Under the pieces are notes generated by a model. That model was not told where the DNA came from. It was given only the letters and a program-made list of their open reading frames with translations, and did no database searches. 64,000 nucleotides of DNA. Source: an uncultured Flavobacteriaceae bacterium. GTDB lineage: Bacteria > Bacteroidota > Bacteroidia > Flavobacteriales > Flavobacteriaceae. Position numbers and translations under genes: made by a program. This document shows positions 33,299 through 59,748 of the stretch, one piece after another (position 1 is the stretch's first letter; each line of letters opens with the position of its first letter). The DNA lies in contig CAJJDI010000009.1 in NCBI GenBank assembly GCA_905182835.1, positions 17,475 to 81,474 of the forward strand, read 5' to 3'.

Positions 33299-36058
33299 AT
33301 GGAGGGTTTTATAAAAAAGGTTTTATTAGATTTAAAAAATAAAAATACAGATTTCTCTAAGTGTGTATTTATTCTTCCAAATAAAAGATCAGGCTATCAT
33401 TTAAAAAAGAACCTTTCGCAAATAATTTCGCAAACAATTTTTTCTCCTAAAATTGTAAGCATAGAGGACTTTATAGAAAGTTTGTCTAAGTTAAAACTTC
33501 TCACTAACACAGAATTGATATTTGAATTCTATAGTGTGTATTTAAAAAACACTCCTGAAAATAAACAGGAAGGTTTTGAAGACTTTATAAAATGGAGCAG
33601 AACATTAATTCAAGATTTTAATATAATTGACAAAGAAATAACGGATACAAATCAAGTCTTCGATTACCTAAAGGCAGTTAAAGAAATGGATCACTGGTCC
33701 TTAGATCCAAACCCTAGTGAACTTGTAAAAAGACATTTATACTTTTGGAGTAATATTAAAATATACTATAATGAATTCTATGAACATCTGTTAAACATCA
33801 ATTCAGGGTACCAAGGAATTTTGGAAAAAAGGGCTCTAAATAACACTTCTTGTTATATTCAAAACAATAGTGAAAAGAGCTTTGTTTTTATTGGATTTAA
33901 TGCGCTAAATAGAATTGAATCCTTAATTATTCAAGAATTTTTAAAAAATACAGTAAGTGAAATTTACTGGGACATAGATAAAATTTCTATTAACTCTTCT
34001 TTTAATAATTCTGCATTTTTTATAAATAAATATAGAAATAAATGGTCTTATTATAAGAATAGAGAAATAAATTGGATTAATGATAACTACTCTTCTAAAA
34101 AAAATATTCACGCAGTAGGAGTATCGAAAAATATCGGTCAAGCAAAATATATCGGCGAGATAATTAAAGAGAATATTAAAACATTAAAAAATACAGCAAT
34201 TGTATTAGGTGATGAGTCTTTATTAATTCCAATGCTTAACTCATTACCTAAAGGAGTAGAAGATGTGAATATAACTATGGGGTTTCCGCTTTTCTCTAGC
34301 CCTGTAAGCTCCTTGATTTATAAAATATTTAAGCTACATATAAATAGCCATGCCACTTTTTATTATAAAGAAGTAGTGTCAATATTATCTCATGAATTAA
34401 TTAAACCCTTATTCGACCAGAATGGGGTTAATTATTCAGATAAAATTATTGATAAAATAAATAATGGAAATGTTATAAATGTTAGCTTAGAATTTATAAT
34501 TAATAATGTAAAGATCAATAGAGATTTGATTTTATTAATTTTTAAAGACTGGTCTAATAGTAGTGAAAGGGCTATAATTAATTGTAAAGAGTTAATTATA
34601 ATAATTAGAGACAATCTTTTAGTTGAAGACAAAGATGAAATACTAACTGTAGAACATTTATATAGGTTTAACGAAATATTTAACGAACTACATATTCTTA
34701 AAAATAGATTTAAGTTTATTAATTCAATTAAACTGTTATTTGATCTATTTCAGGACATTGTAAAAAATGAAAGGTTAAAATTTAATAGTGAGTCCTTTTC
34801 AAAAATACAAATAATGGGACTCTTAGAATCTAGGGTTTTAGATTTTGAAACTGTTATAATTAGCTCAGTAAATGAAGGAATAATGCCTTCTGGAAATATT
34901 GAAAATTCGTTTATTCCTTTTGATGTTAAAGTAGATAACAACATCCCTACTTTTAAAGAACAAGACGCTATTTATTCCTATCACTTTTACAGGCTAATTC
35001 AACGAGCAAAGAACGTATACTTACTTTACAATACAGAGCCTGATTCTCTAAATGGCGGAGAGAAAAGTAGATTTATAAGACAGATAGAATTTGAGGGAAT
35101 TCATGAAATTAATAATAAAATAGTAAGTTCGCATACACCGAAAAATGAAGAAAAATTAATTGAGATAACTAAAACAGAGGATGTTATTAATGAATTAATC
35201 CTTCTATCAAAGGATGGGTTTTCGGTGTCCTCAGTTTTATCATACATTAGAGACCCTTTAACCTTTTATTATAAAAAAATATTAAAAATAAAAGATGAAA
35301 AGAAGGTAGAAGAAACTATTGAATCCAATACTCTTGGAACAGTGATACATGAATCCTTGAAATACATATACACGCCATTAATAAATAAAATGCTATCAAT
35401 TGATTATTTAGAAGATCAATTGACAAAACTTAAGAAGACCGTTAAATTACAGTTGGAATTAAATTATAAAAACGGGCAGTTCAAAACAGGTAAAAATTTA
35501 ATAATTCTTGAAGTAGCTATAAAATATGTTTCAGAATTTATTAAAAGTGAGATTAAATCTATTAAGCAAGGAGATAGTATCCAAATTATTGGGGTGGAAG
35601 AAGATTTTAATATAAAATTTGAAAGTGAAAAGTTGGAAAATGAAATAAATTTAAAGGGCCAAATTGACAGAATTGACATATTAAATGGAACTTTACGAAT
35701 AATTGACTATAAGACTGGTAAAAAAACAGAAAAAAGAGAATTAAACTTATCTAGCTGGGATGATATAGAAATGGATTACGATAAAATGAAAAATTGGTTT
35801 CAATTACTCTTTTATGTATATGCATTTAATAAAACAAATAATCTAAGTATACCAATTGAAACAGGTATTATATCATTTAAAAACTTAAAGTCTGGATTAT
35901 TGAAATTTAACTATGGCACAAGGTTTGATAATGATTCAGCTATAAGTGAAGATGTGTTAAATAACTATAAATTAGTCCTAGAAAATATTTTAATGGAAAT
36001 CTTTAACCCGAATATGAGTTTTGTTGAAAAAAAATTACCCAAAAAAAATTATGTATAA
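33299..36058 (+). CDS. AddB-like inactivated helicase with PD-(D/E)XK nuclease domain
   Basis: CVFILPNKRSGYHLKKNL N-terminus without a Walker A; SVLSYIRDPLTFYYKKIL; C-term GQIDRIDILNGTLRIIDYKTGKKTEKREL. Confidence 0.88.
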   Translation: MEGFIKKVLLDLKNKNTDFSKCVFILPNKRSGYHLKKNLSQIISQTIFSPKIVSIEDFIESLSKLKLLTNTELIFEFYSVYLKNTPENKQEGFEDFIKWSRTLIQDFNIIDKEITDTNQVFDYLKAVKEMDHWSLDPNPSELVKRHLYFWSNIKIYYNEFYEHLLNINSGYQGILEKRALNNTSCYIQNNSEKSFVFIGFNALNRIESLIIQEFLKNTVSEIYWDIDKISINSSFNNSAFFINKYRNKWSYYKNREINWINDNYSSKKNIHAVGVSKNIGQAKYIGEIIKENIKTLKNTAIVLGDESLLIPMLNSLPKGVEDVNITMGFPLFSSPVSSLIYKIFKLHINSHATFYYKEVVSILSHELIKPLFDQNGVNYSDKIIDKINNGNVINVSLEFIINNVKINRDLILLIFKDWSNSSERAIINCKELIIIIRDNLLVEDKDEILTVEHLYRFNEIFNELHILKNRFKFINSIKLLFDLFQDIVKNERLKFNSESFSKIQIMGLLESRVLDFETVIISSVNEGIMPSGNIENSFIPFDVKVDNNIPTFKEQDAIYSYHFYRLIQRAKNVYLLYNTEPDSLNGGEKSRFIRQIEFEGIHEINNKIVSSHTPKNEEKLIEITKTEDVINELILLSKDGFSVSSVLSYIRDPLTFYYKKILKIKDEKKVEETIESNTLGTVIHESLKYIYTPLINKMLSIDYLEDQLTKLKKTVKLQLELNYKNGQFKTGKNLIILEVAIKYVSEFIKSEIKSIKQGDSIQIIGVEEDFNIKFESEKLENEINLKGQIDRIDILNGTLRIIDYKTGKKTEKRELNLSSWDDIEMDYDKMKNWFQLLFYVYAFNKTNNLSIPIETGIISFKNLKSGLLKFNYGTRFDNDSAISEDVLNNYKLVLENILMEIFNPNMSFVEKKLPKKNYV

Positions 36059-38108
36059 AATTATATTATTGTTTTGTTGTAGCATAACTGTCTCTTATGG
36101 ACAAATAAACCCTCAAGATATTGAGATAGTTAGAGATTCATATGGGGTTCCTCATATATACGGGAAAACTGATGCAGATACCGCTTATGGGCTAGCATGG
36201 GTTCATAGTGAAGATGATTTTATGACTATTCAAAAAGCGTATTTAGCTGGAAATCAATTACTAAGTAGTTATCTGCGTAATGACGGAATAATAGTTGATT
36301 TTTTATCTCAATTCATAGAGTCTGAAAAAACAGTAAATGAGTTATTTGACACTCTGTCTATAGATTTTATAAAAATACTTGAAGCATATAGTCAGGGTAT
36401 TAATCGATATGCAGAATTAAATCCTGAAAAGGTGCTAGTTAAAGATCTGTTTCCGGTTACTCCTAGAAAGATGTTGAATTACTCATTTCTACAATTATTT
36501 ATATCTAATGGTGCAGATAAATTAGTTAGTAGTATAATTTCAAATAATACAATTGACTTATCAAACCTTGTAATAAATGAAGATATTCAAGGCTCTAATA
36601 CTTTTGCTTTTAATAACAATAAGACAAAAAATGGAGAAACATATCTTGCTATAAATACACATCAACCACTAGATGGTCCAAACTCTTGGTATGAAGTTCA
36701 TTTAAACAGCGAAGAAGGTACAAATATCCTCGGGGCTACATTTGCAGGAGCTCCTTGTGTTTTAACTGGAGTTAACAAACATTTAGCATGGACACACACA
36801 GTAAATTATCCAGATAAGGCAGATCTGTTTAAGTTAAAAATGCATGACTCAAAAAAGAATATATATTTAGTAGACAACAAAGAGTATAAACTAGAAAAAC
36901 ACAAAGCAAAATTAAAATATAGAGTACTCGGAATTAATATTGGTATTTATAAAACTTATTACAAAAGTATTTTTGGTCCGACTTTAAAAAACAAATCTGG
37001 ATACTATTCGGTTAGAACACCAAGCTTATACAACATTAAGGCGCTAGAACAATGGTGGAGAATGAATAAGGCTACGTCTTTTAATGAGTTTTATGGTATT
37101 TTAAACATGAAGTCTATTCCTGGCTACAATATTGGTTATGCAGATAAAAAAGATACTATTTTTTATATTTCAAATGGAATAATTCCTATTCGTAATGAAA
37201 AAAATGATTGGACAAAAATTGTAGATGGAAGTAAAAGTGAAAACTTATGGGAAGAATACTATGACATAAAGGATCTTCCTCAAGTTATTAATCCAAAATC
37301 TGGATTTATATATAATGCAAACCACTCTCCATTTAAATCTACTGGGTGGTCTGAAAATCCAAAACAAGAAGATTATTCTAAGACAATGAATTATGAGACC
37401 TATGATAATAACAGAAGTACTAGAATTATAGATTTAATAAACTCAAACGAATCAATCAATTATGAGAAGTTTAAAGAAATAAAATACGATAACAAACTGC
37501 CTCGACCATTAAATTATAATTTTTTAGATATTAACTCAATCTGGGAAATAAATGCCGATAAATACCCCGAAATATCGGACGTAATATTAAATATCCAAAA
37601 ATGGGATATGGCAACAAACTCAAACTCCGTAGGAGCAGCTAATTATGCAGTTTTATATTATCTGCTAATAAATAAATTTAAAAATATAAAGTATAAAAAA
37701 GTATTTGACGAAATTGAAATGGTAGAGCTAATCAGAAGCACTAAAAAGTATTTACTAAAATATTTTGACTCAACAAATACAGAGTTAGGAGATTTTCAAA
37801 AACTTGTTAGAGGGGATAAAGAAATTGGAATCTTTGGATTGCCTGATGTCATAACTGCCATGAAGGGGATTGATTATGAAGATGGTAAAATTAAAATTAC
37901 ACATGGTGAATCCTATATTTCACTAGTTAAATTTAAAGATGAAAAGGTAGAAATAGAGACTATTATGTCATATGGCTCTAGTGATAACCCAAATTCAAAG
38001 CACTATAACGATCAAATGGATTTATATTCTAAATTTAAAACTAAAAAAATGACTTTAGATAAAGTTGAAGTTTATAAAAAAGGAGTGAAAGTATATAACC
38101 CTAAATAG
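36051..38108 (+). CDS. Penicillin acylase family (Ntn-hydrolase) protein, secreted
   Basis: Signal peptide MYKIILLFCCSITVSYGQ; VRDSYGVPHIYGKTDADTAYGLAWVHSEDDF; putative cleavage/nucleophile GSNTFAF. The ATG at 36051 fits better than the listed TTG at 36021. Confidence 0.9.
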   Translation: MYKIILLFCCSITVSYGQINPQDIEIVRDSYGVPHIYGKTDADTAYGLAWVHSEDDFMTIQKAYLAGNQLLSSYLRNDGIIVDFLSQFIESEKTVNELFDTLSIDFIKILEAYSQGINRYAELNPEKVLVKDLFPVTPRKMLNYSFLQLFISNGADKLVSSIISNNTIDLSNLVINEDIQGSNTFAFNNNKTKNGETYLAINTHQPLDGPNSWYEVHLNSEEGTNILGATFAGAPCVLTGVNKHLAWTHTVNYPDKADLFKLKMHDSKKNIYLVDNKEYKLEKHKAKLKYRVLGINIGIYKTYYKSIFGPTLKNKSGYYSVRTPSLYNIKALEQWWRMNKATSFNEFYGILNMKSIPGYNIGYADKKDTIFYISNGIIPIRNEKNDWTKIVDGSKSENLWEEYYDIKDLPQVINPKSGFIYNANHSPFKSTGWSENPKQEDYSKTMNYETYDNNRSTRIIDLINSNESINYEKFKEIKYDNKLPRPLNYNFLDINSIWEINADKYPEISDVILNIQKWDMATNSNSVGAANYAVLYYLLINKFKNIKYKKVFDEIEMVELIRSTKKYLLKYFDSTNTELGDFQKLVRGDKEIGIFGLPDVITAMKGIDYEDGKIKITHGESYISLVKFKDEKVEIETIMSYGSSDNPNSKHYNDQMDLYSKFKTKKMTLDKVEVYKKGVKVYNPK

Positions 38109-38130
38109 GCTGCAGTATTAACACAAATAA

Positions 38131-38163
38131 AAAAAGTCCAAATATATTGTTTGGACTTTTTTA
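38131..38163. terminator. Bidirectional intrinsic terminator between convergent genes
   Basis: aaaaagtccaaa-tatattg-tttggactttttt inverted repeat. Confidence 0.88.
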
Positions 38164-38182
38164 TTTAATTAATTTTTTATGA

Positions 38183-38677
38183 CTAGTCTTCTAATGAAGC
38201 TAAAGAGCCAGTCCAGTCACAATACCATTGCACATAGTTGACTTTTCCCTCTTCGTTAAAATCAAATGATTCATAAATAGATACAACCACAGACTTTGCT
38301 TCTGTTGAATCCGTAGCGCTAAGAGTTACTTCCTGGTCATAGTACAATCTAACAGATCCATCAGTCACACCCGTGTCTGCATTAACTCCTGTTAAATGAT
38401 TTAAAGGAGTTACGTACTTAGCATCATAATTGGCAAAAAATTCTTTATGTGATAATTTGATGTCTTCTAAACGTAATGAATCTACAGAACCAACAAGGGT
38501 TCCTTTGAAAACTACGTCGTCTGAAAAGTGAGAGTAATCAACGGATTCGTTTGCAAAACCAGCAAAAAGTGCATCAATAGTTTTAGAGTTTTTTTCAAAA
38601 GTTTTCATCGCTTCTGCATTTGGATTACAAGAATAAAAAGCAAAAGATAAAAAAGTAAAGTAAATAAGGTTTTTCAT
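38183..38677 (-). CDS. Putative lipoprotein with NTF2/SnoaL-like domain
   Basis: Lipobox FAFYSC; helix then beta-rich C-term ATDSTEAKSVVVSIYESFDFNEEGKVNYVQWYCDW. Confidence 0.65.
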   Translation of the reverse strand: MKNLIYFTFLSFAFYSCNPNAEAMKTFEKNSKTIDALFAGFANESVDYSHFSDDVVFKGTLVGSVDSLRLEDIKLSHKEFFANYDAKYVTPLNHLTGVNADTGVTDGSVRLYYDQEVTLSATDSTEAKSVVVSIYESFDFNEEGKVNYVQWYCDWTGSLASLED

Positions 38678-38782
38678 AATAAGTTTTTTAGTAATTATAA
38701 TTCAATTTAGTTAAATTTTTAACAAAATTTTTTAAATATCAGCAAATTAATTGGTGATATTTGCTTATTGTTATAATTATCA

Positions 38783-41215
38783 ATGAAAAACTATTTCCCC
38801 TCAAAACTTATACTAATTCTGTTAGTTAATTTTTCCCTGTATTCTCAAGATAGAAAAACTGCATTAGCTAAAAGAGTGTCATCGCCTCCTGTAATAGATG
38901 GGGTTCTTGATGATAGCATATGGAATGGAGTAGAAATAAATTCAGATTTCACTATGTACAGGCCATCCAATACTGGACCAGCTAGAGATACACATGCAAC
39001 ACAGGTGAAAATTATCTACGATGATGAAGCTGTCTATTTTGGTGCTAAAATGCTTGATCCAGATTACAATAATATAGCTAAGGAGGTTAGTCAACGAGAC
39101 GAGTTTTATATGAACAAAACTGATTTTATAATGGTAAGTATCAGCCCATACGATGACGGCCTCAATTATATAAGCTTTGTAATCACCAGCGCAGGAACTA
39201 TATCAGATATGAAAACCGTTGGAGATTTTGATGACAATGACGGAGATTACGATGTAGTCTTTGATGCAAAAATTTCATTTGACAAATTTGGTTGGAATGC
39301 GGAATTCAAAATTCCATATAGTGCCTTAAGGTTTCCAAAAAAAGATATTCAAAACTGGGGTGTAAATTTTTTCAGAAGAGTATTTAATTTAAATGAAACA
39401 TATGCTTGGAACTTTATTGACAGGTCTGTTGGTACTGCAAGTGAGTATATGGGGGTTTTAGAAGGGATACAAAAAATAGACCCACCTACTAGGTTATTCT
39501 TTTATCCATACAGTCAATTTAATTCCGAGATTTACGAAGGAAATACAGGTACAGGTATATCTGCTGGTATGGACATTAAATATGGTATAAACGAAGCATT
39601 TACAATCGACGCAACATTAATCCCAGATTTTGGACAAGTTAAATTTGATGAAGTAGAATTAAATTTAAGTCCCTTTGAACAACAATTTGACGAAAAGAGA
39701 GCTTTTTTCACAGAAGGAACAGAGCTATTTAACAGAGGTGGAATCTTCTATAGTAGACGTATTGGTGGTGATTTAAGTAGCAGCGGTGAGGATTTTATAC
39801 AAGAAAACGAAAAAGTATCAGCTTCGGATAACTCAATAGATTTAATCAATGCAATTAAGATTTCTGGAAGAACAGATAATAAGCTGGGAATTGGATTTTT
39901 CAATGCGATAACCAAAAAATCAACAGCTACTTTGCAAGACACGTTAAATCAAAGTACTAGAGAAGTTATACTAGAGCCCTTAACAAACTACAATGTTCTA
40001 GTCTTGGATCAACAAATAAAAAATAATTCCTCCATTACATTTCTAAATACAAATGTTAAAAGAGCAAAAGAGTATAGAAATGCAAATGTTTCTGCCCTGT
40101 TATTAGATTTAAAGACCAAGCAAAACAACTACAGATTCGAAGGTTCTATTTTAAGAAGTGAGATATTAGAAAATGGAGCAAAAGATGACGGTTATAAAAC
40201 TTCATTTAAAATAAATAAGACCAAAGGTAATTTTAGATGGATGACCGGAGTATGGACGACAGATGACACATATAATCAAGACGATTTGGGAATTTCAAGA
40301 TGGTATAATAACCAAAGTTTGTTTGCTAACATATCTTATGAAATCTTTAACCCTATTAATTATTTTAATCAACTAAAAATAAAACTAGGGTTAAGGCATG
40401 GAAGAAGGTATAGACCTAGTGTAAAAAGAAATAACAATTATGAGTTAGAAGTATTTTTTGAGACTAAAAAACTTTATAAACATAGATTTGAAATTGAGTA
40501 CACTACTTTAAACAAAGATTATTTTGAACCTAGAGTAGAAGGATTGTTTGTTTTAAAACCAGAATTAGTAGGTCTTAGATACGATTTTGACACAAATAAT
40601 ACTAAAAATTTAGTCTTTAGCACCGAAATAGATGCCCAAAAAAATATGGATGAGTTTTATGATGAAAAGAACCATAAAATAAGTTCTAGCGTGGGAGTGG
40701 ATTACAAAGTTTCAGATAGGTTAAACTTAAGTACTGGATTAGGAATTTCATTTGAAAAAGATGATTTAGGATATGCAGGAAGTGAAGGCCAAGAGGTGAT
40801 CGTAGGTCTAAGGGATGTAAAAGTCAATCAGGCAATGTTTGAGATGAATTATAATTTAGACTCATATAAAGGGTTTGCACTTGAAATCAGAAATTACTGG
40901 AGTACTGTAGACTATAAAAGTTATTATTCATTACAAGAAAATGGCATGGGAGCACTTGTAAATGATTATCCACTTGAAGACAATCCAAACACTAATTTTA
41001 ACATATGGAATCTAGATTTATCCTATAATTGGAGATTCGCACCTGGAAGTGCAGCGACTTTTCAATACAGAAATCAAATATTTAATAATGATGATAATTC
41101 CATTATATCCTATGCCGAAAGCTTAGATAATTTATTTAGAAATAATATAGGTCATCAATTGTCGATTAGAATAAATTATTTCATAGATTACAATAGGTTA
41201 AAAAGAAAAAATTAA
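38783..41215 (+). CDS. DUF5916 domain / carbohydrate-binding family 9-like outer-membrane protein
   Basis: Signal peptide; PPVIDGVLDDSIWNGVE; ISFDKFGWNAEFKIPYSALRFP; FFTEGTELFNRGGIFYSRRIG. Confidence 0.9.
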   Translation: MKNYFPSKLILILLVNFSLYSQDRKTALAKRVSSPPVIDGVLDDSIWNGVEINSDFTMYRPSNTGPARDTHATQVKIIYDDEAVYFGAKMLDPDYNNIAKEVSQRDEFYMNKTDFIMVSISPYDDGLNYISFVITSAGTISDMKTVGDFDDNDGDYDVVFDAKISFDKFGWNAEFKIPYSALRFPKKDIQNWGVNFFRRVFNLNETYAWNFIDRSVGTASEYMGVLEGIQKIDPPTRLFFYPYSQFNSEIYEGNTGTGISAGMDIKYGINEAFTIDATLIPDFGQVKFDEVELNLSPFEQQFDEKRAFFTEGTELFNRGGIFYSRRIGGDLSSSGEDFIQENEKVSASDNSIDLINAIKISGRTDNKLGIGFFNAITKKSTATLQDTLNQSTREVILEPLTNYNVLVLDQQIKNNSSITFLNTNVKRAKEYRNANVSALLLDLKTKQNNYRFEGSILRSEILENGAKDDGYKTSFKINKTKGNFRWMTGVWTTDDTYNQDDLGISRWYNNQSLFANISYEIFNPINYFNQLKIKLGLRHGRRYRPSVKRNNNYELEVFFETKKLYKHRFEIEYTTLNKDYFEPRVEGLFVLKPELVGLRYDFDTNNTKNLVFSTEIDAQKNMDEFYDEKNHKISSSVGVDYKVSDRLNLSTGLGISFEKDDLGYAGSEGQEVIVGLRDVKVNQAMFEMNYNLDSYKGFALEIRNYWSTVDYKSYYSLQENGMGALVNDYPLEDNPNTNFNIWNLDLSYNWRFAPGSAATFQYRNQIFNNDDNSIISYAESLDNLFRNNIGHQLSIRINYFIDYNRLKRKN

Positions 41216-41234
41216 ACTATTAAATAATAAAATT

Positions 41235-41426
41235 ATGGAAACTTATAAATGTGAAAGTTGTGGAATGGCGGTTAACGCTAGTTGTGCTAAATGCAATGAG
41301 CCATTAATAAATGGTCACATCTCCTTAGATAACGGAGATAAAGTACAGGTTTCAAGCTGTCCTAAGTGCGAAGGAAAAATAAAATCACCACAATGTTGTG
41401 GAAGTGATATGAATTGTAGCCTATAA
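41235..41426 (+). CDS. 63-aa Cys-rich (zinc-ribbon-like) protein
   Basis: CxxC pairs KCESC, SCAKC, SCPKC, then QCCGSDMNC; 9 Cys in 63 aa; own terminator. Confidence 0.75.
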   Translation: METYKCESCGMAVNASCAKCNEPLINGHISLDNGDKVQVSSCPKCEGKIKSPQCCGSDMNCSL

Positions 41427-41435
41427 AACTTAATT

Positions 41436-41468
41436 ATAACGCACAATTTTAACTGTGCGTTATTTTTT
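41436..41468 (+). terminator. Intrinsic terminator after the Cys-rich gene
   Basis: ataacgcaca-attttaac-tgtgcgttat-tttttt. Confidence 0.88.
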
Positions 41469-41577
41469 ACGCTATTAAATCACTTTACTTTTATTAATGT
41501 TTGTCTAAATTTTATTTATATATTACATCTAATACTAATTTTTATAAATATTTAAATCAAATTAATTAGTGTATTAA

Positions 41578-42900
41578 ATGAATATAAAATTACAAATATC
41601 TAGCTATCAAGACAAAAAAATGATGTCTAATGTTTATTTTGATTTAATGGACACTAATTATAGGAAAAAAATAAAATCTGATCTATACGTAAACAGATTA
41701 AACTTTACGTTAAACAAAGTAGGACAAGGGGATTCAAATTATATTTCTAAAAACATACTACTAGAAAAGCTTAAAAAACAAAGACTACTTACAATAGATA
41801 ATTTCAAAATAGGCGTATGGAAATTATCAGATTGCGAAAATTACTTAAGAAAAGGAGTTGAAATAAAGTCAGTAAAAGAGTTTATAAAGGAAAACTTTAA
41901 GCATATTTCAATATTTACTAAAAACGATTATTTAAATACGGTTGGAGTTTATAAAAAACATCTTAAAATCGAAAGAACTATATATCTAAGAGATTTAAAT
42001 ACCGAAAACTTACTACTATTTAAAACCAATACCCTTTTTAACGGGTTAAAAATATCTTCAATAAACTCGTATTTAAAAAAACTAAAAGTCATTGTTAATA
42101 AAGCACATGCAAAAAATTTAATTATAAATAAAAACATATTCTCAAAAAATTTAATTGAAAAGGAAGAGGATAGAAAAGTAAAGAGGGACAGGGAAAAATT
42201 TGTAAATATAGAACAGGGAATATCTAATGCAGAAAGTATTTATGACTTACAGGCTATAACATTATTTGTTATAATGATAATTTTTAAAGGAATGAAACCT
42301 ATCGAAATGGTTAAATACAAAGAGCTTGATCACGCTATAATGATAAATAACAAGGATAAATATATCTATTATATCTCTAGGGGGATTAAACGTTTTGTTC
42401 GATTTGAAGAAAATATATTTAAGCTAATAAACATTCTTAAAACATCATTGTATTACACACATTTTGAAAAGAATCCTGAGGTGTTAGCGCCTTACAATAA
42501 CCCATATGAGGTTTTTAATCTTGATGTAAGTAAAGAAATTAAAAAACATAAAAACTTATGGAATATTTATCAAAAGAAAATTAAAAAATTGCTTGGATGC
42601 AATTACAAAATGGCAAATACATTGTATGTTAATTATATAGATGATTTGGAGATTTCACAAAATGTTAGAAATATCCTAGTAGGAAAAAATGATGGACAAG
42701 AAGTCGTCTTTGATATAGAAAATCCATTAAGAAATCAAATTAATGAAGTAGAAAATAGATTGATTGAAGATTTCAAAATAGGGAATTTAATTGCATTGGT
42801 TGAAAACAGAATGAACTTATTAGATGTTTTAGAAAGCGAAAGTAAAAATACAAATTGGCAAAGACCAATAGATTTTATTAAAACGATTTCCAGTATTTAA
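41578..42900 (+). CDS. Degenerate tyrosine-recombinase/phage-integrase-like protein (SAM-like core-binding domain recognisable, catalytic residues not)
   Basis: SSINSYLKKLKVIVNKAHAKNLIINKNIF resembles the integrase SAM-like domain; LFVIMIIFKGMKPIEMVKYK sits where (G)MR is expected; no HxxR or LGH…Y seen. Confidence 0.6.
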   Translation: MNIKLQISSYQDKKMMSNVYFDLMDTNYRKKIKSDLYVNRLNFTLNKVGQGDSNYISKNILLEKLKKQRLLTIDNFKIGVWKLSDCENYLRKGVEIKSVKEFIKENFKHISIFTKNDYLNTVGVYKKHLKIERTIYLRDLNTENLLLFKTNTLFNGLKISSINSYLKKLKVIVNKAHAKNLIINKNIFSKNLIEKEEDRKVKRDREKFVNIEQGISNAESIYDLQAITLFVIMIIFKGMKPIEMVKYKELDHAIMINNKDKYIYYISRGIKRFVRFEENIFKLINILKTSLYYTHFEKNPEVLAPYNNPYEVFNLDVSKEIKKHKNLWNIYQKKIKKLLGCNYKMANTLYVNYIDDLEISQNVRNILVGKNDGQEVVFDIENPLRNQINEVENRLIEDFKIGNLIALVENRMNLLDVLESESKNTNWQRPIDFIKTISSI

Positions 42901-45470
42901 TATGTGTCGTACAGACTAAGGAGTTTTATTTTACTCTTTAATTCACTGATGCTACTGTTCAGGTCTTTTTTTATTGATATTTTATACTCTTTTCCAGGCA
43001 TCATATCAAAATAATTATCAGAAAAATTATGCTTTGAACCAATGTCTACAAAAACATTCTTCACTAGATTTTCAGATTTTAAACTTATTTCAAATTTATC
43101 AACTAATTCTCTAATTTGATATTCTATACGTGGCTTACTTAATTTTAAATCCTTGAATTCTGACAAATAATATATATTACTAGATATTTCTTTTTCCTTA
43201 TCTGATAAAGTAGCTATTACTAAGCTATTATTAGAATCAAAATTACTTTTTATCCAGTCGATAGACAGGCTGTCTATTTTAAATGTTGAATCTGCCTGTA
43301 GCAGATGATTTTTATTCCTTTGATGTAGTATTTCCCCATTAAAACTTAGAACTTTAAGATTTATATCAACTTTTTTAGACTCTAATAAATCTGAAATTAA
43401 ATGCACCTCAATTTCCTTGTCTGACTTGAAAAAACTAATCAAAACTGGCTGAAATGCTTTTTTTGTAGAATAATGAAGAGCTTTCCATTTTCCGTAATAA
43501 TCAATACTCGACCAAGATGCTACTGGCCAACAATCATTTAATTGCCAGTATAGACTCCCCATGGAATAACCTTTATTTCTTCTGTGAGATTCCATCCCCA
43601 TTGAAACACCATAGGCTTGCAAGATTTGACTAACATATAAATATCCTGCAAAACTATTTGGTTTATTATAATACCTAAACATATAGTCTTCAATTGTACT
43701 ATTTCCAATGCTTGATCTTTGATGAGATTTCATTACTTCGGAATATATACTATAATCGTTTTCATTTGTATATTTATCCACACTTGAAAACTCTGGGAAA
43801 GACTGAAATCCAAATTCGGACATGAATCTAGGGACCTTTTGGTTATAAGATTCAAAATCTTCTTTCCCCCACCAAACTCCCCAATAATGTGCATCTCCAC
43901 TAGTGTACGATTCTGTTCCCCCAGAAAGAGAGCTTCCAGGTGAGGAAGGCCAATAATTCGTACTACTATCTAATTTTTTAACAACTTTAGGCAAGATTTT
44001 ATGAAACACATCGTCATAAGCTTTGCTGATTTCACTCGCTACTTCAATAGATTGATTTTTAATTACATCTTTTTCCCAACCCCAATTTTTCCAAGCAGAT
44101 CTAACTTCGTTATTTCCACACCATAATGCAATTGATGGGTGCCCTCTAAGTCTTTTTATGTTATACTCTGCTTCTTGTTCAACAGACTTTAAAAAATCTT
44201 CATCCCCTGGATACATAGCGCACGCAAACATAAAGTCTTGCCAAACCAGTAGCCCTTTTTCATCGCAAATATTATAAAATATTTCTTTCTCATAAATACC
44301 TCCGCCCCAAACTCTTATCATATTCATATTAGCATCCACTGCAGCCTCCAATAATTCTTCATACTTATCATCAGTAACTCTATTTAAAAAAATATCTTGT
44401 GGGATGTAATTTACCCCTTTCATAAATACAGGTTTGTTATTTACTTCAAAGTAAAAATTATTACCAATACTATCTTTAGACGTAACTAAGTCTATTTCTC
44501 TAAGTCCAATCTTCTTGGAAGTTGTTGTGAAGTTGTTATTTGATTTTAGCTTAACTTTAATATCATACATTGTTTGATTGCCCATACCGTTGGGCCACCA
44601 TAGTTCATGGTTTTTTATTATAAACGGTATTTTTATCTTGTTTATACCTTTATTTACATAAATAAGATCTGTAGATATTTTTTGATTATTTACATATATT
44701 TCTGAAATCATTTCATCTATTTCTAAAGAAGATTCTAATTCAATTTCAGCAACTAAATTTGCGTTTTCACTCAGACTCAGTTGTCTAACATACAAATCTT
44801 GAATATTAAAATAATTCCATGTTTTTAAATTAATTGGCTTCCAAATACCACTGGTAACTAATCTCGGACCCCAATCCCAGCCATAATGATAAGGGGCTTT
44901 TCTGGTAAAAACACTAACCCTCTTGTTCTCTTCTACCTTTCCTATTTCTGCTAAATCATTGGCATTAAAAGAAGAAATATCATAACCAAGACTGTCATGA
45001 AGTATAACTCCTTGGCTAATAGGAGAGAATAACTTAACATAAAGATTATTCTTGCCAACTTTAGAATATTTTTTAATATCTACAGTTTTCCCAACAAACA
45101 TATTGTCTGTAGTTGCAATTAATGAATCATTTAAATAAATTGACGAATAAGTATCAATACCTTGCAATTCTAATCCGATAAAATGACTATTGACATCCTT
45201 TTTTGATAGATCAAATTCGGTCTTGTACTCCCAATCAGTCTTGTCTATCCATTGAAGTTCATGCTCATTAAGTCTATAAAATGGATCTTCGATTAGTTCA
45301 TTACTTAGTAAGTCAGTATGAACATTGCCTGGAACGGAGGCTTCTAACCAATGAGAATCTATATTGTTTTTAAATTCCCAATTTTCACTTATTTCTACAA
45401 TATTATCATTTTGATTACTACAATTATAAAAAAGAAAAAGAAAGAAAGAAAATTTAAAAAAAAACTTCAT
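42897..45470 (-). CDS. Beta-mannosidase, glycoside hydrolase family 2, lipoprotein
   Basis: Lipobox FLFYNC; ENWEFKNNIDSHWLEASVPGNVHTDLL; acid/base WCGNNEVRSAW; nucleophile region PRFMSEFGFQSFPEF. Confidence 0.94.
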   Translation of the reverse strand: MKFFFKFSFFLFLFYNCSNQNDNIVEISENWEFKNNIDSHWLEASVPGNVHTDLLSNELIEDPFYRLNEHELQWIDKTDWEYKTEFDLSKKDVNSHFIGLELQGIDTYSSIYLNDSLIATTDNMFVGKTVDIKKYSKVGKNNLYVKLFSPISQGVILHDSLGYDISSFNANDLAEIGKVEENKRVSVFTRKAPYHYGWDWGPRLVTSGIWKPINLKTWNYFNIQDLYVRQLSLSENANLVAEIELESSLEIDEMISEIYVNNQKISTDLIYVNKGINKIKIPFIIKNHELWWPNGMGNQTMYDIKVKLKSNNNFTTTSKKIGLREIDLVTSKDSIGNNFYFEVNNKPVFMKGVNYIPQDIFLNRVTDDKYEELLEAAVDANMNMIRVWGGGIYEKEIFYNICDEKGLLVWQDFMFACAMYPGDEDFLKSVEQEAEYNIKRLRGHPSIALWCGNNEVRSAWKNWGWEKDVIKNQSIEVASEISKAYDDVFHKILPKVVKKLDSSTNYWPSSPGSSLSGGTESYTSGDAHYWGVWWGKEDFESYNQKVPRFMSEFGFQSFPEFSSVDKYTNENDYSIYSEVMKSHQRSSIGNSTIEDYMFRYYNKPNSFAGYLYVSQILQAYGVSMGMESHRRNKGYSMGSLYWQLNDCWPVASWSSIDYYGKWKALHYSTKKAFQPVLISFFKSDKEIEVHLISDLLESKKVDINLKVLSFNGEILHQRNKNHLLQADSTFKIDSLSIDWIKSNFDSNNSLVIATLSDKEKEISSNIYYLSEFKDLKLSKPRIEYQIRELVDKFEISLKSENLVKNVFVDIGSKHNFSDNYFDMMPGKEYKISIKKDLNSSISELKSKIKLLSLYDTY

Positions 45471-45514
45471 ATTAATTGTTTATAAGCTAGTAACCAAATT
45501 AGATTTATCGTTAG

Positions 45515-46000
45515 CTATTTGCTTTGTATTTCAATAACCTCTCTTGAAATATCATCTGATTGTAAAAAACTCAACTTCAACTTTTCTTCTTCATATTTCA
45601 TATACACGCTTTCCATCCATAGAATATTTTCCTCTTTCTTGACACCGTTTTCAATGAAAACAAACTTGCCTTTATTTAAATAACTTATATGTGCTGTATT
45701 GTTGTCAATACTTACTTTAAAATCATATAAACTCCAATCGGTTGAAACATAGCCTTTTTTAAAATGTGTTTTTATAACATTTAAGAATGAACCTAGATCA
45801 TACTTTTCTCCCATCTCATAAATAACAAAATCTTTGGTTACATGGTCGTATACTAACTTATTACCAAGGTTGTCTATATCAATTGCATTAAAAAATTCTT
45901 TTAGAACTGAAATTGCTTGATCTTCCGTTATATTATTATTAATATTTGAGCTACAGCTCATTAAGCACAAGAGTGAGAAAGAAATTATTAATTTATTCAT
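45515..46000 (-). CDS. Putative lipoprotein, NTF2/SnoaL-like
   Basis: Lipobox LLCLMSC; small alpha+beta protein. Confidence 0.6.
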   Translation of the reverse strand: MNKLIISFSLLCLMSCSSNINNNITEDQAISVLKEFFNAIDIDNLGNKLVYDHVTKDFVIYEMGEKYDLGSFLNVIKTHFKKGYVSTDWSLYDFKVSIDNNTAHISYLNKGKFVFIENGVKKEENILWMESVYMKYEEEKLKLSFLQSDDISREVIEIQSK

Positions 46001-46066
46001 GGTTTAAAATTTTAATATTATTAAATTTACAAAATGTATTAGACCTGTAATATTAAAAAAAAAGAA

Positions 46067-46981
46067 ATGAATAAAATATTATTATTATTAAATATATTAA
46101 TAACAATTAATTCATTTTCGCAGACAGTACTTATAGATTCCCTTAAACAAGAAGGATGGAACAAGTCAGGTAAGGTTACTTTTTTAGTAAATCAAACCGC
46201 ATTTAGCAATTGGACATCTGGAGGAGAAAACAGTATTGCAGGGGCACTAGCTCTTGATTATAATTTAAACTATAACAGAAATGGTTGGTCATGGGATACT
46301 AAAATGATAGGAGCCTTTGGAATTAATAAAAATAGTGATAGTAAATTTGCAAAAAAAACAGATGACAGAATAGAGATTAATTCATTGGTTGGGAAAAATT
46401 TCACTAAAGAATTAAGTTACTCGAGTTTTGTGAATTTTAAAACTCAATTTTCTAAAGGGCATAAATATTCAACAAGTAGTAGTGGGTTAGAGGATAGGGT
46501 TGAAACAACTAGATTCTTTTCTCCAGCTTATCTTCAATTAGGTGTTGGTGTTTATTGGAAAAAAAATAATGACTTTTGGGTAAATATGGCTCCAGTTACA
46601 GGTCGATTGATTATTGCAAATAGAAAATTCACAACAAATCTTGAAGAAGGAGAGGAGTATTTCGGTATATCAAAAGGCAATAATTTTAGATTTGAACTAG
46701 GTGCGTCGTTAACTGGATTTTACAAATTTGAATTAATAGAGAATGTGATTCTTGAGCAAAGATTAAGTTTGTACTCAGATTATCTTCAAAATGCTGAAAA
46801 TATTGATATCGATTATACTATATCAGCATTTATGAAAGTGAATGATTATTTATCCACGAGTTTAATTATACAGTGTATGTACGATGATAATGCAATAAAA
46901 AGAGTACAGCTAAGAGAAGTGTTCGGACTGGCAGTTACTTTAGATTTACTTGAAATCCCTAATCTTATTTCAAAAATATAA
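46067..46981 (+). CDS. DUF3078 domain-containing outer-membrane protein
   Basis: Signal peptide; GWNKSGKVTFLVNQTAFSNWTSGGENSIAGALALDYNLNYNRNGWSWDTKMIGAFG. Confidence 0.9.
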   Translation: MNKILLLLNILITINSFSQTVLIDSLKQEGWNKSGKVTFLVNQTAFSNWTSGGENSIAGALALDYNLNYNRNGWSWDTKMIGAFGINKNSDSKFAKKTDDRIEINSLVGKNFTKELSYSSFVNFKTQFSKGHKYSTSSSGLEDRVETTRFFSPAYLQLGVGVYWKKNNDFWVNMAPVTGRLIIANRKFTTNLEEGEEYFGISKGNNFRFELGASLTGFYKFELIENVILEQRLSLYSDYLQNAENIDIDYTISAFMKVNDYLSTSLIIQCMYDDNAIKRVQLREVFGLAVTLDLLEIPNLISKI

Positions 46982-46983
46982 AA

Positions 46984-47730
46984 CTACCTACTTCGAAGTT
47001 TAGACAATAGTTTAAGTATTTCTAAATATAACCATACCAAAGTTACTAAAAGTCCAAAAGCACCATACCACTCCATGTATTTAGGTGCTCCTTTTTCAGC
47101 ACCCTCTTCGATAAAATCAAAATCAATTACCAGATTTAGAGAAGCTATAACAACAATAAATAAACTAATACCTATACTCATAAGCGAGCTGTTTGATGGA
47201 TCCAAAACTGAAATTCCAGAACCAAAAAAACTCATTATAAAGCTTACAAAATAAAGTAAAAATATTCCTCCTGTTGCAGCAAAAACTCCTAATTTGAAGT
47301 TTTCAGTAGCTTTTATTATCCCTGATCTATAAGCTAATAATAAAGAAGTTAAGATTCCTAAAGTTAACCCAATTGCTTGTACAACAATTCCTTCATAAGA
47401 TTCGTTAAACATATAAGAAATTGATCCAAGAGCTAAGCCTTCTAAAATAGCATATAAGGGTACTGTATATGGTGACCATTCTTTTTTAAAAATTGTAATA
47501 ATAGCCACAATTAATCCTCCAAATACTCCTACAGGTATAAGGTAGGTCATCTCAGGGTTGAAGCTATAATAGCCTGAAAAAATCAATAAGAATAGTCCCA
47601 TTGCTGTTTTATCTACAGTCCCTTTAATAGTCATTACGTCATTTAGTTCTGCTCCTCGACGATTGGGGACACTTGTAAATGCTTTTGAGTTTAAAGCTGG
47701 GTTCCCACTTCTGTAACTAAGGTGTTTCAT
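46984..47730 (-). CDS. Bax inhibitor-1/YccA family membrane protein
   Basis: Seven-TM ORF with N-term SGNPALNSKAF; YAILEGLALGSISYMF. Confidence 0.93.
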   Translation of the reverse strand: MKHLSYRSGNPALNSKAFTSVPNRRGAELNDVMTIKGTVDKTAMGLFLLIFSGYYSFNPEMTYLIPVGVFGGLIVAIITIFKKEWSPYTVPLYAILEGLALGSISYMFNESYEGIVVQAIGLTLGILTSLLLAYRSGIIKATENFKLGVFAATGGIFLLYFVSFIMSFFGSGISVLDPSNSSLMSIGISLFIVVIASLNLVIDFDFIEEGAEKGAPKYMEWYGAFGLLVTLVWLYLEILKLLSKLRSR

Positions 47731-47734
47731 CTTC

Positions 47735-47947
47735 TTAAGTTTTTTTTACGAATTCTGTTTTTAAAACTAATCCTTTGATTTTTTTAAATCTGCAATCTAT
47801 TTCTCCAGGCGCATTAGTTAAACTAATGTTTTTAATTGAAGTTCCTCTTTTAATGGTGATTGATGTTCCTTTAACTTTTAAATCTTTTATTAAAATAACG
47901 GTGTCTCCATCGTTAAGAAAATTTCCATTAGCATCTTTACTTTCCAT
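47735..47947 (-). CDS. PhnA-domain protein (alkylphosphonate-utilization family, C-terminal domain only)
   Basis: VKDANG-like start, GDTVILIKDLKVKGTSITIKRGTSIKNISLT…EIDCRFKKIKGLVLKTEFVKK. Confidence 0.85.
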   Translation of the reverse strand: MESKDANGNFLNDGDTVILIKDLKVKGTSITIKRGTSIKNISLTNAPGEIDCRFKKIKGLVLKTEFVKKT

Positions 47948-47985
47948 TTTATTTTGCTATAATTATGGGGTAAAAGTAATAAAAT

Positions 47986-50319
47986 TTATTCATTTTCAGA
48001 CATAGAATATGGCACAGAGCTTTTATCTGATCCCCAGTTAAAATTAGGAGTACTTGACATCTCAAAGTCTATAACCCCTCCCTTTCTCAAATCAGCATGG
48101 TCTAACCAATTCTTATTAGATTCTAATTCATTAAGTTTAAAGTCGTTAATAAAGATGTTTTTGGCACTATTATTTTTTGCATTAATTTTTAATTCTTTAC
48201 CGTTACTTAGTTCTATAGTAACTTTTTCAAAAAGTGGACTTCCTATAACATATTGGCCAGTAACAGGAGCTACTGGATAAAATCCGAGTGATGAAAATAC
48301 AAACCATGCTGATGTTTGCCCATTATCCTCATCTCCGCAATAGCCGTCAGCACCTGAACCGTACAAGTTATCCATTACATACCTAACCTTTTCTTGTGTT
48401 TTCCAAGGCTCTTGAGCATAATTATAGAGATATATTGCGTGTTGGGCTGGTTGATTTCCGTGTGCATACTGACCCATTCCTCCTATCTCCATTTCCAATA
48501 TTTCATGAATTTTAAATCCATAATAACTATAATCTGAGCTAGGATCAGATGTAAATATTTGATCCATTTTTCTAACGTAATTCTCTCTACCTCCCATTAA
48601 ATTGATTAAGCCTTGAGGGTCATGCAAAACAGACCATGTATAATGCCATGCGCTTCCTTCTGTGAACACCCCACCCCATTTATCTGGCCTAAAAGGAGAT
48701 TCAAAATTTCCATTAGAAGACTTTCCTCTCATAAAATTTGTAGATGAGTCAAACACGTTTTTATAATTAAAAGATCTGTTTTTAAAACGAGTAATTTCTT
48801 CTTCTGGTCTTTCTAATTTTTCCGCTAATCTCCAAATACAATAATCATTGTAGGAATACTCTAAAGTCCTAGCAACACTTTCATTAACAGATGTGTCAAA
48901 TGGAATATAACCCAATGAATTATATTCTTTAACACCTTTTCTCCCAACAGAACTTAAAGGTCCTTCATTATTAGAACTATTTATTATTCCCTTGTAGGCA
49001 GTTTCTATATCAAAATTATTAATCCCTTTCAAATAAGCTTCTGCTATAATAGATGCAGAATTAGATCCAATCATGCAATCTCGATGACCTGGGCTAGACC
49101 ATTCGGGTAACCAACCGCTTTCTTTGTATGGATTAACCATAATACCTTGTAATATTTCTCCAAGTTTTTCTGGATACATAAGCGTGTAAAATGGGAAAAC
49201 AGCTCTAAAAGTATCCCAAAAACCATTATCCGTATATAATGGGCCCTTTTCTATTTTTCCATTATATGGGCTATAGTGTACTTGCTCTCCTTCAGCATTA
49301 TATTCATGGAACTCTCTTGGGAATAGAAGTGTTCTATAAAAACTAGAGTAAAACTTTATAACATTTGATTTCGCTATTTCATGAGCTTTGAAATACTCCT
49401 TTTTATTATTGAAATTGTCTTCAATAGCAGGCTTAATTTTTATTCTCGATAATTCATTATTCCAAGATTCCTTTGCTAGTTCTTTTGTTTTTTCAAAAGA
49501 TTGCAGATTTGGAATTTCTCTATTTAAATTAATTTGAGCTTGCTCGTGACTAATAAATGAAGACGATATTCTGGCTTCTACAATATTATTGTCTTTATTT
49601 AAAAAACTAACATAACTTCCAACATGCTCACCCGTGAGTTCCTTTTCAGAAAATATTTTTCCTTTTCCGTCCCATGTTCCAAACTCATCAAAAGGGGTGT
49701 TAAACTCAATAATAAAATAATTTGAAAAATTATCTGGCACACCTCCTGAATTATTCTTTGATACCCCAATAATTTTGTTTTCCTCTGGTATGACTTTTAC
49801 TGTTGAGTTTTTAAAAAATGCATCAATTATTATGTGAGATTTAGAATTTTTTGAAAACTCGAATTTAAAATGTGCAGACCTTTTAGTTGGGGATAACTCT
49901 ACAATTGTTTTAGAGTCTATTAATTCAACTTTGTAGTAATGTGGTAATACTATAATATTATTAAACTGAGATTTTCGATCGTTTTCCAACACTCTTAATT
50001 CTCCTGAAATTGGCATAATGGAAAAAGCACCATAATCATTTATCCAAGGACTTGGTTGGTGGGTCTGACGTATTCCTACTAAACCAGAATTTTTATCAGT
50101 ATAAATCCAGCCATCCCCCATCTCACCTGTTTGAGGGGTCCAAAAGTTCATCCCCCATGGAAGTGCTATTGCTGGGTAAGTATTTCCGTTAGATAACTCA
50201 GGAGCGGAATCAGAACCTATAAGTGGATTAACATATTGTGTGAAATCATCTTGCGAAAACACAAAAAAATTACAGAAAGTAATAACCAAAATGGTTAATA
50301 AAAAGTTTTTGTTTTGCAT
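47986..50319 (-). CDS. GH92 family glycoside hydrolase (HGNQPAQH variant)
   Basis: YVNPLIGSDSAPE…; GQYAHGNQPAQHAIYLYNYAQEPWKTQEKVRYVMDNLY…GYCGDEDNGQTSAWFVFSSLGFYPVAP. Confidence 0.95.
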   Translation of the reverse strand: MQNKNFLLTILVITFCNFFVFSQDDFTQYVNPLIGSDSAPELSNGNTYPAIALPWGMNFWTPQTGEMGDGWIYTDKNSGLVGIRQTHQPSPWINDYGAFSIMPISGELRVLENDRKSQFNNIIVLPHYYKVELIDSKTIVELSPTKRSAHFKFEFSKNSKSHIIIDAFFKNSTVKVIPEENKIIGVSKNNSGGVPDNFSNYFIIEFNTPFDEFGTWDGKGKIFSEKELTGEHVGSYVSFLNKDNNIVEARISSSFISHEQAQINLNREIPNLQSFEKTKELAKESWNNELSRIKIKPAIEDNFNNKKEYFKAHEIAKSNVIKFYSSFYRTLLFPREFHEYNAEGEQVHYSPYNGKIEKGPLYTDNGFWDTFRAVFPFYTLMYPEKLGEILQGIMVNPYKESGWLPEWSSPGHRDCMIGSNSASIIAEAYLKGINNFDIETAYKGIINSSNNEGPLSSVGRKGVKEYNSLGYIPFDTSVNESVARTLEYSYNDYCIWRLAEKLERPEEEITRFKNRSFNYKNVFDSSTNFMRGKSSNGNFESPFRPDKWGGVFTEGSAWHYTWSVLHDPQGLINLMGGRENYVRKMDQIFTSDPSSDYSYYGFKIHEILEMEIGGMGQYAHGNQPAQHAIYLYNYAQEPWKTQEKVRYVMDNLYGSGADGYCGDEDNGQTSAWFVFSSLGFYPVAPVTGQYVIGSPLFEKVTIELSNGKELKINAKNNSAKNIFINDFKLNELESNKNWLDHADLRKGGVIDFEMSSTPNFNWGSDKSSVPYSMSENE

Positions 50320-50328
50320 GTTTTGTTA

Positions 50329-54757: not shown

Positions 54758-54772
54758 TTTTACTTATTTAAA

Positions 54773-56542
54773 TTAATTAGACGGAATTGCTCCCATTCCG
54801 TTAAATGCCATTTCAATAAACTGACAGGAATTACCTTCAACTGTAGAGGTAAACCTAATTCTAATATATCTACTCATTGGACCTTCGGGGATGTCAAATT
54901 CAGCAAAATCCGAATTTACTCCATCAATTTGCTGAGTTGTAATTAATTGCCAACCAGCATCTTCAAATGCACCTGTAGCAACTGGAACTGATGTAACATT
55001 ATTGCCAGAACTTTCAAATTCAGGTAACGTTTCTGCTCCTTCAATAGTTTGTCTTCCCCATATTTCAATTTCTGTTGGATTATTTCCTGAAAAACTCCAT
55101 GTTGGTCTGTAATGGATTTTTGCTTTTGCTAATTGTGTTATAACACCGAGATCTATAGTGAAGTGACCAGGAACAGAATTCTCTCCAGAGTGAAAACTAT
55201 TAGTATCGCCAGACCAGAAACTATTATTATCCCATAAATATTGTGAAGGGTTAGCTTCATAGAAAGTCCCTGGATTATCACTAGACATATTGGCCATAGT
55301 AAATTGGGTTCTGTCTAATTCTATTGGTTCTGTGTTTTCACCATAAAAAGATAATTCTGTAAATTGTGCACTATCATTACCTACCGATTCAGTAACTCTG
55401 ACTCTTATATATCTCATAAGACTAGATGCTTGCGGAATTATAAAGCTACTAGTTTGTTCGTTTAAACCATCAACATTCCCTTCGTACAATAATTGCCAAC
55501 TAGCATTTATAAATTCTATCTCATCACTTGATGAGGTTTCTGCAAAATTTAAATTATCTCTTCCCCAAATTTGCACCTCTGTTATGTTATTAGATGAATT
55601 TATCGATGGGTCTAACATATTTAATTTTACTTTTCTAAGATCTGTTTTTACTCCTAAATCAACAGTAAAGTGATGAGGCATACTGCTTGGTCCTGAATGA
55701 AAACTATATAAGTCAACGCCATTAAAAGACCCGTCCCCGTCAAATAAGTACTGATCAGGGTTTGCTCCATTAAATGTTCCTGGATTATCGCTCGGCATGT
55801 GTACTAATCTTATGAAATCTTTATTAAGCTCCGTGTATGGTAGATCAGGAAGTGTGTATTCTTGAGGCTCTAATGCAATAGAATCTATGCCATTTAACCC
55901 GGATTGTATAACTGAGGTAGTTTGCATACTTCCCAGTGGCTTTAAATTAATAAGCTTTACTCTGTTGTCTTCAAAAAACAGAGTATCTCTTACTATTTCA
56001 TCTTCTTCATTTTCATAATCAAGTAGAGTATAAATTACGAACTCAGATTCTGCATTTCCATAAAAGTTAACATAGTTTCCTTCAGGTTCAAAAGAATAAT
56101 CTAATACCTCTCTAGGGTTTTGGTCTAAAATAAATTCATCTCCAATTACATTACCTGAAACTGTTTGGGAAATAGATAAATTACCATTAGGATCTTGAGT
56201 ATATACATCAAACTCATAACTACCCTCGTCTAATTCTTCAATTATTACGGAGTATATATCGGATAAGTTTTCTGCAATTGGAAAGCTTAACATTTCATCG
56301 TCAAACTCTATAATAATTTGATTTGAAGTTCCTAAAAATTGAGTATACCCTTCTAATTGTGCTCGATAGTATCCAGGCCTAATTTTTAAAGTATCCAGTT
56401 TACCTGCATAAATAATCTCTCCATTTAAATATTCTTCATGTATTGAATCCATATCACTACAGGATATATAAATTAACGAACTAGCTAAAACTAGTTTAAT
56501 AAATTTAAATTTTTGTAAGATGTGTTCTAACTTCTTCAACAT
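54773..56542 (-). CDS. PUL surface lipoprotein with DUF4998-like N-terminus and two discoidin (F5/8 type C)-like modules
   Basis: Lipobox IYISC; two repeats of M(P/S)SDNPGTF…ANP.QYL.D…SFHSG…P.HFT.DLGV. Confidence 0.85.
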   Translation of the reverse strand: MLKKLEHILQKFKFIKLVLASSLIYISCSDMDSIHEEYLNGEIIYAGKLDTLKIRPGYYRAQLEGYTQFLGTSNQIIIEFDDEMLSFPIAENLSDIYSVIIEELDEGSYEFDVYTQDPNGNLSISQTVSGNVIGDEFILDQNPREVLDYSFEPEGNYVNFYGNAESEFVIYTLLDYENEEDEIVRDTLFFEDNRVKLINLKPLGSMQTTSVIQSGLNGIDSIALEPQEYTLPDLPYTELNKDFIRLVHMPSDNPGTFNGANPDQYLFDGDGSFNGVDLYSFHSGPSSMPHHFTVDLGVKTDLRKVKLNMLDPSINSSNNITEVQIWGRDNLNFAETSSSDEIEFINASWQLLYEGNVDGLNEQTSSFIIPQASSLMRYIRVRVTESVGNDSAQFTELSFYGENTEPIELDRTQFTMANMSSDNPGTFYEANPSQYLWDNNSFWSGDTNSFHSGENSVPGHFTIDLGVITQLAKAKIHYRPTWSFSGNNPTEIEIWGRQTIEGAETLPEFESSGNNVTSVPVATGAFEDAGWQLITTQQIDGVNSDFAEFDIPEGPMSRYIRIRFTSTVEGNSCQFIEMAFNGMGAIPSN

Positions 56543-56552
56543 GTTTTAAATA

Positions 56553-57782: not shown

Positions 57783-57794
57783 AATATAATTTAA

Positions 57795-59744: not shown

Positions 59745-59748
59745 ACTG

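Follow-up and report, generated by a model that had tools for sequence, protein, structure and literature searches.

Tyrosine recombinases of the IntCTnDOT type in Bacteroidota share a layout of arm-binding, core-binding (Phage_int_SAM_5) and catalytic domains. Arg I of these enzymes may occupy either of two places, and a downstream arginine can functionally replace the first one (PMC8138268). Inactive recombinases acting as host proteins are known in eukaryotes; in bacteria, they are known on a transposon, in the form of TnsF. This protein of the Tn6022-family Tn7-like transposons is an inactive tyrosine-recombinase derivative that serves DNA recognition and has an active, ancestor-like homologue in Tsy (PMC10293859). 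In eukaryotes, the Crypton-derived DUF3504 proteins of animals and the yeast proteins Gcr1/Cbf2 were domesticated, lost their catalytic residues and are conserved, many of them as transcriptional regulators (PMC3212892). It is also documented that an integrase can repress its own promoter from an att site that overlaps it (PMC2951348). Parts of a review of mobile-element recruitment in prokaryotes mention tyrosine recombinases in a catalytic role only (PMC8987985), and a limited literature search returned no account of a dead integrase that is inherited vertically on a bacterial chromosome.

Here we describe a gene in a 64,000-nucleotide stretch of a contig from an uncultured Flavobacteriaceae bacterium (the window). 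Its product appears to have the IntCTnDOT-type layout, and intact relatives occur within Flavobacteriaceae. We consider it fairly probable that an integrase was domesticated here into a DNA-binding protein which does not cut and probably regulates its own gene.

The gene, its surroundings and its domains

The reading frame extends from an ATG start to a TAA stop at 42898-42900 (Table 1), so that the sequence-only reading was right to call it full length. The TAA shares two bases with the stop codon of the convergent GH2 gene; this interlock had been pointed out before and is also found in other species of the window's genus. As previously described, the gene stands apart from mobile genes: neither a mobile gene nor a tRNA was found near it, transposition genes (a TnsF-type linkage to tniQ or Tn7-like genes) are absent from the window, and the remainder of the window consists of housekeeping and glycan-use genes. 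Four genes now separate it from addB. On the other side, positions 42897-62874 hold the GH2 β-mannosidase-type gene, several GH92-like genes and SusC/SusD-like genes; this suggests a mannan-use locus, in which GH92 was assigned by eye and not by Pfam. A 63-aa Cys-rich (zinc-ribbon-like) protein is encoded at 41235-41463, with a strong intrinsic terminator (z -4.7).

Table 1 Features of the recombinase-like gene and its neighbourhood, in window coordinates.
Feature	Position	Strand	Remarks
Catalytically dead tyrosine-recombinase-like protein	41578..42900	+	440 aa; homologues in 26 genomes of three genera; dN/dS 0.10-0.26
N-terminal arm-DNA-binding-like region, residues 1-95	41578..41862	+	invariant Y28-R29-K30; aligned with intact relatives
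Core-binding SAM-like domain, residues 100-185	41875..42132	+	PF13102; best conserved part of the dead clade
Catalytic-type domain without catalytic residues, residues about 205-380	42190..42717	+	hhalign to intact relatives 99.7%, E 5e-27
Catalytic Arg I position, K237	42286..42288	+	R in 6/6 intact relatives; K/G/H/Q in 24 readable dead members
Catalytic Lys region of the β-hairpin, R268-G269	42379..42384	+	K in 6/6 intact relatives; dead members K 12, N 9, G 4
Catalytic Arg II position, N347	42616..42618	+	R in 6/6 intact relatives; dead members K 15, R 6, N 4
His of LGH position, K370	42685..42687	+	H in 4/6 intact relatives; 0/25 dead members
Nucleophilic Tyr position, F378	42709..42711	+	Y in 5/5 readable intact relatives; 4/25 dead members
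Conserved block CACTTTACTTTTATTAATGTTTG (ACTTTA-N7-TAAwGT; CACTTTACTTTTATTAAwGTTT), candidate operator/promoter	41481..41503	+	98 bp before the start codon
AddB-type PD-(D/E)XK nuclease gene, ancestral upstream neighbour	33299..36058	+	PF12705 E 1.8e-21; directly upstream of the recombinase-like gene in g57 and g138
Convergent GH2 (β-mannosidase-type) gene, syntenic neighbour	42897..45470	-	stop codons overlap
DUF3078 gene, syntenic downstream neighbour	46067..46981	+	PF11276; adjoins the recombinase-like gene in g138 and some g57

Profile comparison detects homology to active-site-intact relatives along the entire protein, which bears out the suspected recombinase kinship. The dead-clade profile of residues 205-440 aligns with these relatives over 213 columns (hhalign, 99.7% probability, E 5e-27). 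The core-binding domain read by eye is real: Phage_int_SAM_5 (PF13102), the sole Pfam match of the window protein, is weak there (E 0.0019, below cut-off) and exceeds the curated cut-off in orthologues (E 2.3e-8, 2.6e-6 and 1.5e-9), which thus carry the SAM-like domain typical of the tyrosine recombinase superfamily. PF00589 matches one intact relative at E 0.0024, below cut-off. PF17293 is found above cut-off in most intact relatives at residues ~8-75; in the dead clade it falls below cut-off, with a weak match in one orthologue (L003). NCBIfam holds no meaningful model for the window protein. The arm and core-binding parts retain invariant basic positions (Y28 R29 K30, K158, K167 and K168), and the pI is 9.5.

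Structure prediction relied on a shallow alignment of the window and related-locus sequences. A full-length AlphaFold model from four sequences reaches a pLDDT of 39.4 and was set aside; the catalytic-type domain alone gives a pLDDT of 68.5 and a pTM of 0.68. The 12 best PDB matches of this domain model are all tyrosine recombinases (Flp, XerA), at E 0.05-0.5 and TM-scores of about 0.35-0.44, none of them significant; they support a recombinase fold for the predicted domain without proving it. A PDB sequence search with the dead family returned no real match, and a profile of five intact relatives returned XerA (4a8e) and lambda Int weakly. In the XerA alignment, ARKTF falls on the second Arg box, the two LLGH motifs coincide and Y meets the nucleophile; at E 0.15, this is supportive only.

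Active-site positions

The comparison is based on six intact-looking relatives (L014, L015, L030, L031, L034 and L049) from other Flavobacteriaceae and beyond, which share R-GM/GF(Y), an S-K hairpin, ARKTF, the Tyr and, in most cases, LGH. The catalytic columns were read in 25 dead members, one of which is not covered at Arg I. All peptides quoted in the sequence-only reading are present in the window protein: KGMKPIEM (K237-G238-M239, DNA 42286-42294), CNYKMANTLYVNYI and LVGKNDGQEVVFD.

Alignment traces the loss of catalytic residues through the entire dead clade. Arg I is absent in 24/24 readable members. The earlier reading had noted this loss correctly, but against the wrong motif: the intact form is RGM, with the Arg before GM in all six intact relatives, and not GMR. 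Its HxxR box is degraded at the Arg II position, which retains Arg in genus g138 only; the His, in contrast, is not part of the loss, because the intact relatives already have K or N in its place. In the window protein, the residues described as missing from the LGH...Y region are indeed replaced, and the Tyr column of the 25 dead members reads F 8, I 6, Y 4, M 3, S 2, H 1 and L 1. The four members with an aligned Tyr all belong to g57, and their Arg I and Arg II positions are occupied by G and K, respectively. At the β-hairpin, where the Lys column is ambiguous by one residue, most sister sequences have K or N compared to R268-G269 in the window; a basic residue is therefore often kept there. 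No dead member unites Arg I, Arg II, His and Tyr. Catalytic residues at shifted positions were looked for, and none is present in any conserved way; the alignment likewise reveals no conserved substitute or downstream Arg of the IntCTnDOT manner across the dead clade.

Inheritance, selection and upstream elements

Copies of the gene occur in 26 genomes from three related genera, namely 4/5 in the window's genus (g1), 6/6 in g138 and 16/21 in g57, always at one locus. Orthologues exist, as had been asked, with conserved synteny; they share 74, 58 and 56% identity with the window protein within its genus and 31-35% in g138 and g57. Beyond these genera the family is rare. A profile that includes intact relatives matched 13/400 genomes of the family, and in an order sample of 398 genomes it gave one match besides the window's own. 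The genomes are incomplete MAGs of about 56-86% completeness. In the three no-match genomes that could be checked (G301, G056, G280 of genus g64), the contig stops at addB or a short way past it, and four further g57 genomes without the gene have no addB match either; the gene is therefore present wherever the stretch is assembled in the three genera.

The syntenic order is addA, ompA-like, addB, recombinase, (GH2), DUF3078, Bax1, and each dead-clade locus has addB or another of the syntenic neighbours (GH2, DUF3078, Bax1) beside the gene. In g57 and g138, the gene lies directly 3' of addB. The dead members form a single clade (100/100) with a long stem branch, and the order of its tree, g1,(g138,g57), equals that of the AddB tree. 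Most genomes with AddB lack a recombinase-like gene, and an integrase beside addB was not seen as a family-wide arrangement in the other genera sampled. The linkage could be mere vertical inertia. No relatives from phages, plasmids or viral contigs were found in the collections searched, and the loci scanned contain no tRNA that would point to a tRNA-linked att site.

Genome G063 of genus g64, from the sister clade in the AddB tree, likewise carries a relative close to addB; this relative (L014) is apparently intact and may mark the ancestral state. Against this, a different gene occupies that place in the congener G760, the relative itself is cut off by the end of the G063 contig, and its placement as sister in the recombinase tree is supported at just 86/79. 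Two further intact relatives were noted in passing. Genome G766, which also holds a dead copy, encodes a second, intact-looking relative on contig C24 (L049/L099; RGF, ARKTF and Tyr, with R replacing the LGH His). In G309, an intact integrase-like gene (L030, 8277-9845) lies just 3' of a stretch that translates like tRNA-flanking sequence (SWARTKDPLINSQ); it is perhaps located on a tRNA-linked island, and ARAGORN detects no tRNA in that stretch.

Purifying selection is evident from dN/dS values of 0.10-0.26 in 14 close pairs (Nei-Gojobori), well away from the neutral values that were to refute functional retention. The values are 0.05-0.22 for residues 1-204 and 0.10-0.26 for the remainder, so the dead domain itself is constrained. 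Within the locus, the recombinase-like gene evolves fastest (74% identity vs 80-97% for neighbours). The reading frame is intact in all genomes but G766, where the copy (L098, contig C4) was considered as a pseudogene; addB is frame-shifted there too, which makes sequencing errors probable. Nucleotide identity between the window and its closest relative, L008, is mostly 90-98% over about 35773-42165, a stretch that begins at the end of addB and reaches midway into the recombinase gene; further into the gene it falls to about 70%, and past the gene the values are 80-88%. A homologous-recombination breakpoint near 42165 is likely and explains why this pair has a low dS in the N-terminal half. 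Vertical inheritance, a fixed locus and purifying selection, as expected of a domesticated mobile-element protein, are thus all found here; together with the clade-wide residue loss, they lend good support to the earlier description of the protein as retained, non-catalytic and domesticated.

The proteins of g57 and g138 are about 40% identical, yet in 16/16 loci a common palindrome, AAATGCTTGAA-N5-TTCAARAT, precedes the ATG by 108-109 and 120-122 bp. Column conservation is 0.90 inside the palindrome and 0.65 outside. Exact copies are confined to this locus, with one in each of 10/11 g57/g138 genomes; in the eleventh, G762, the site departs by one mismatch. When 14 genomes were scanned with up to two mismatches, the remaining matches stayed at control level, and those looser matches that were inspected fall in coding sequence, so a regulon motif was discarded. 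An intrinsic terminator was discarded as well: the RNA folds no better than shuffles, and the following T run is not consistent. Since the palindrome, unlike the terminator of the 63-aa gene, forms no stable RNA hairpin, it is more likely a site in double-stranded DNA. We infer that the conserved arms around a variable centre would suit a pair of recombinase-like protomers.

This palindrome is absent from the window's genus, which instead has the block listed in Table 1. In 4 species of the genus, the block lies 98-101 bp from the start and hardly varies, with diverging flanks; it is no rarer than chance within the window, and its palindromic character is weak and imperfect. It could equally be a promoter, and another regulator could own either upstream element. 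Separately, a 73-aa ORF without a Pfam match (L032, 10514-10735, genome G329) is divergent from the recombinase-like gene and starts about 20 bp from the palindrome. It is also found in the upstream alignments of G780 and G781, and is absent in G137 and G782.

Alternative explanations and comparison with known systems

That the gene is a functionless relic integrase drifting slowly towards loss would agree with its rate, the fastest of the locus, and with the long stem branch. Yet the frames are intact apart from the G766 copy, where the frame-shifted addB points to sequencing error, dN/dS is low, and the gene is kept across three genera in very small genomes of 1.0-1.6 Mb; we regard such decay as scarcely credible. 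Very improbable, too, is a still-active recombinase with a rearranged active site. The replaceable first Arg of the IntCTnDOT subgroup (PMC8138268) offers a precedent, Arg II persists in one genus and four g57 members keep the Tyr, but no conserved substitute Arg exists, the four residues never occur together, the Tyr-bearing members have G and K at the two Arg positions, and the window has F at the Tyr.

The protein could help the neighbouring AddAB helicase-nuclease in DNA repair, as its place directly after addB in g57 and g138 would suggest; several genes intervene in the window's genus, however, the gene has its own conserved upstream element, and most AddB genomes do without it, which leaves this role quite unlikely. 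It could instead act through protein interaction or in a dominant-negative manner, pairing with active recombinases or occupying a former att site beside addB and so blocking related elements. The apparently intact relative beside addB in G063, the single dedicated palindrome kept in each sister-genera genome and a separate canonical Xer-type gene in the window's genome all fit. No related element, phage or plasmid appeared in the collections, though, and with a G063 contig ending inside the gene and a congener without it, the link may be coincidence; we deem this explanation unlikely.

Under the preferred reading, domestication into a non-cutting DNA-binding protein, an arm-binding-type Bacteroidota tyrosine recombinase would have settled 3' of addB in the ancestor of three small-genome marine Flavobacteriaceae genera. 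Its cleavage chemistry (the first Arg, the LGH His and the conserved Tyr) would have been lost on one long stem branch, as would the second Arg in two of the three genera. The gene would since have been passed on vertically, with purifying selection maintaining its product as a host protein. Judged from its sequence, the window-family protein likely binds DNA, and the conserved arm and core-binding domains, the pI and the sister-genera palindrome make a DNA-binding protein or regulator plausible. We postulate that a pair of protomers may grip a palindromic site without cutting it, via the core-binding and former catalytic domains. The most likely target would be the palindrome about 100 bp upstream of the gene itself, possibly alongside further targets; autoregulation through this upstream element is a reasonable guess. 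More tentatively, and with considerable doubt, the family might be a counterpart, on bacterial chromosomes, of the Crypton-derived regulators of animals: a near-single-site binder that uses a former core-type att site as its operator and possibly shields this site from related elements.

If true, such a chromosomal, vertical case in free-living bacteria would make the path from integrase to DNA-binding protein traceable residue by residue, with help from a candidate binding site, from relatives that are still intact and from intermediates in which degradation is partial (one genus keeps Arg II). Keeping the gene in very reduced genomes suggests a real benefit.

Compared to IntCTnDOT-type enzymes, the window family lacks Arg I, the His and a conserved Tyr, is found without a recognisable mobile element and is vertically inherited. 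XerC/XerD are likewise chromosomal and vertically inherited, but catalytic. The autoregulated prophage integrase IntS of KplE1 has a binding site at its own promoter (PMC2951348) and resembles the window family in the candidate upstream site; IntS is active, in contrast to the window family, and is att-linked. The DUF3504 proteins and Gcr1/Cbf2 are eukaryotic, derive from Cryptons and are fused to other domains, and we claim no direct relationship to them. TnsF is transposon-borne and has zinc fingers, tandem core-binding domains and a truncated catalytic domain (PMC10293859), whereas the window family is chromosomal, with an arm-binding-like domain and a full-length catalytic-type domain.
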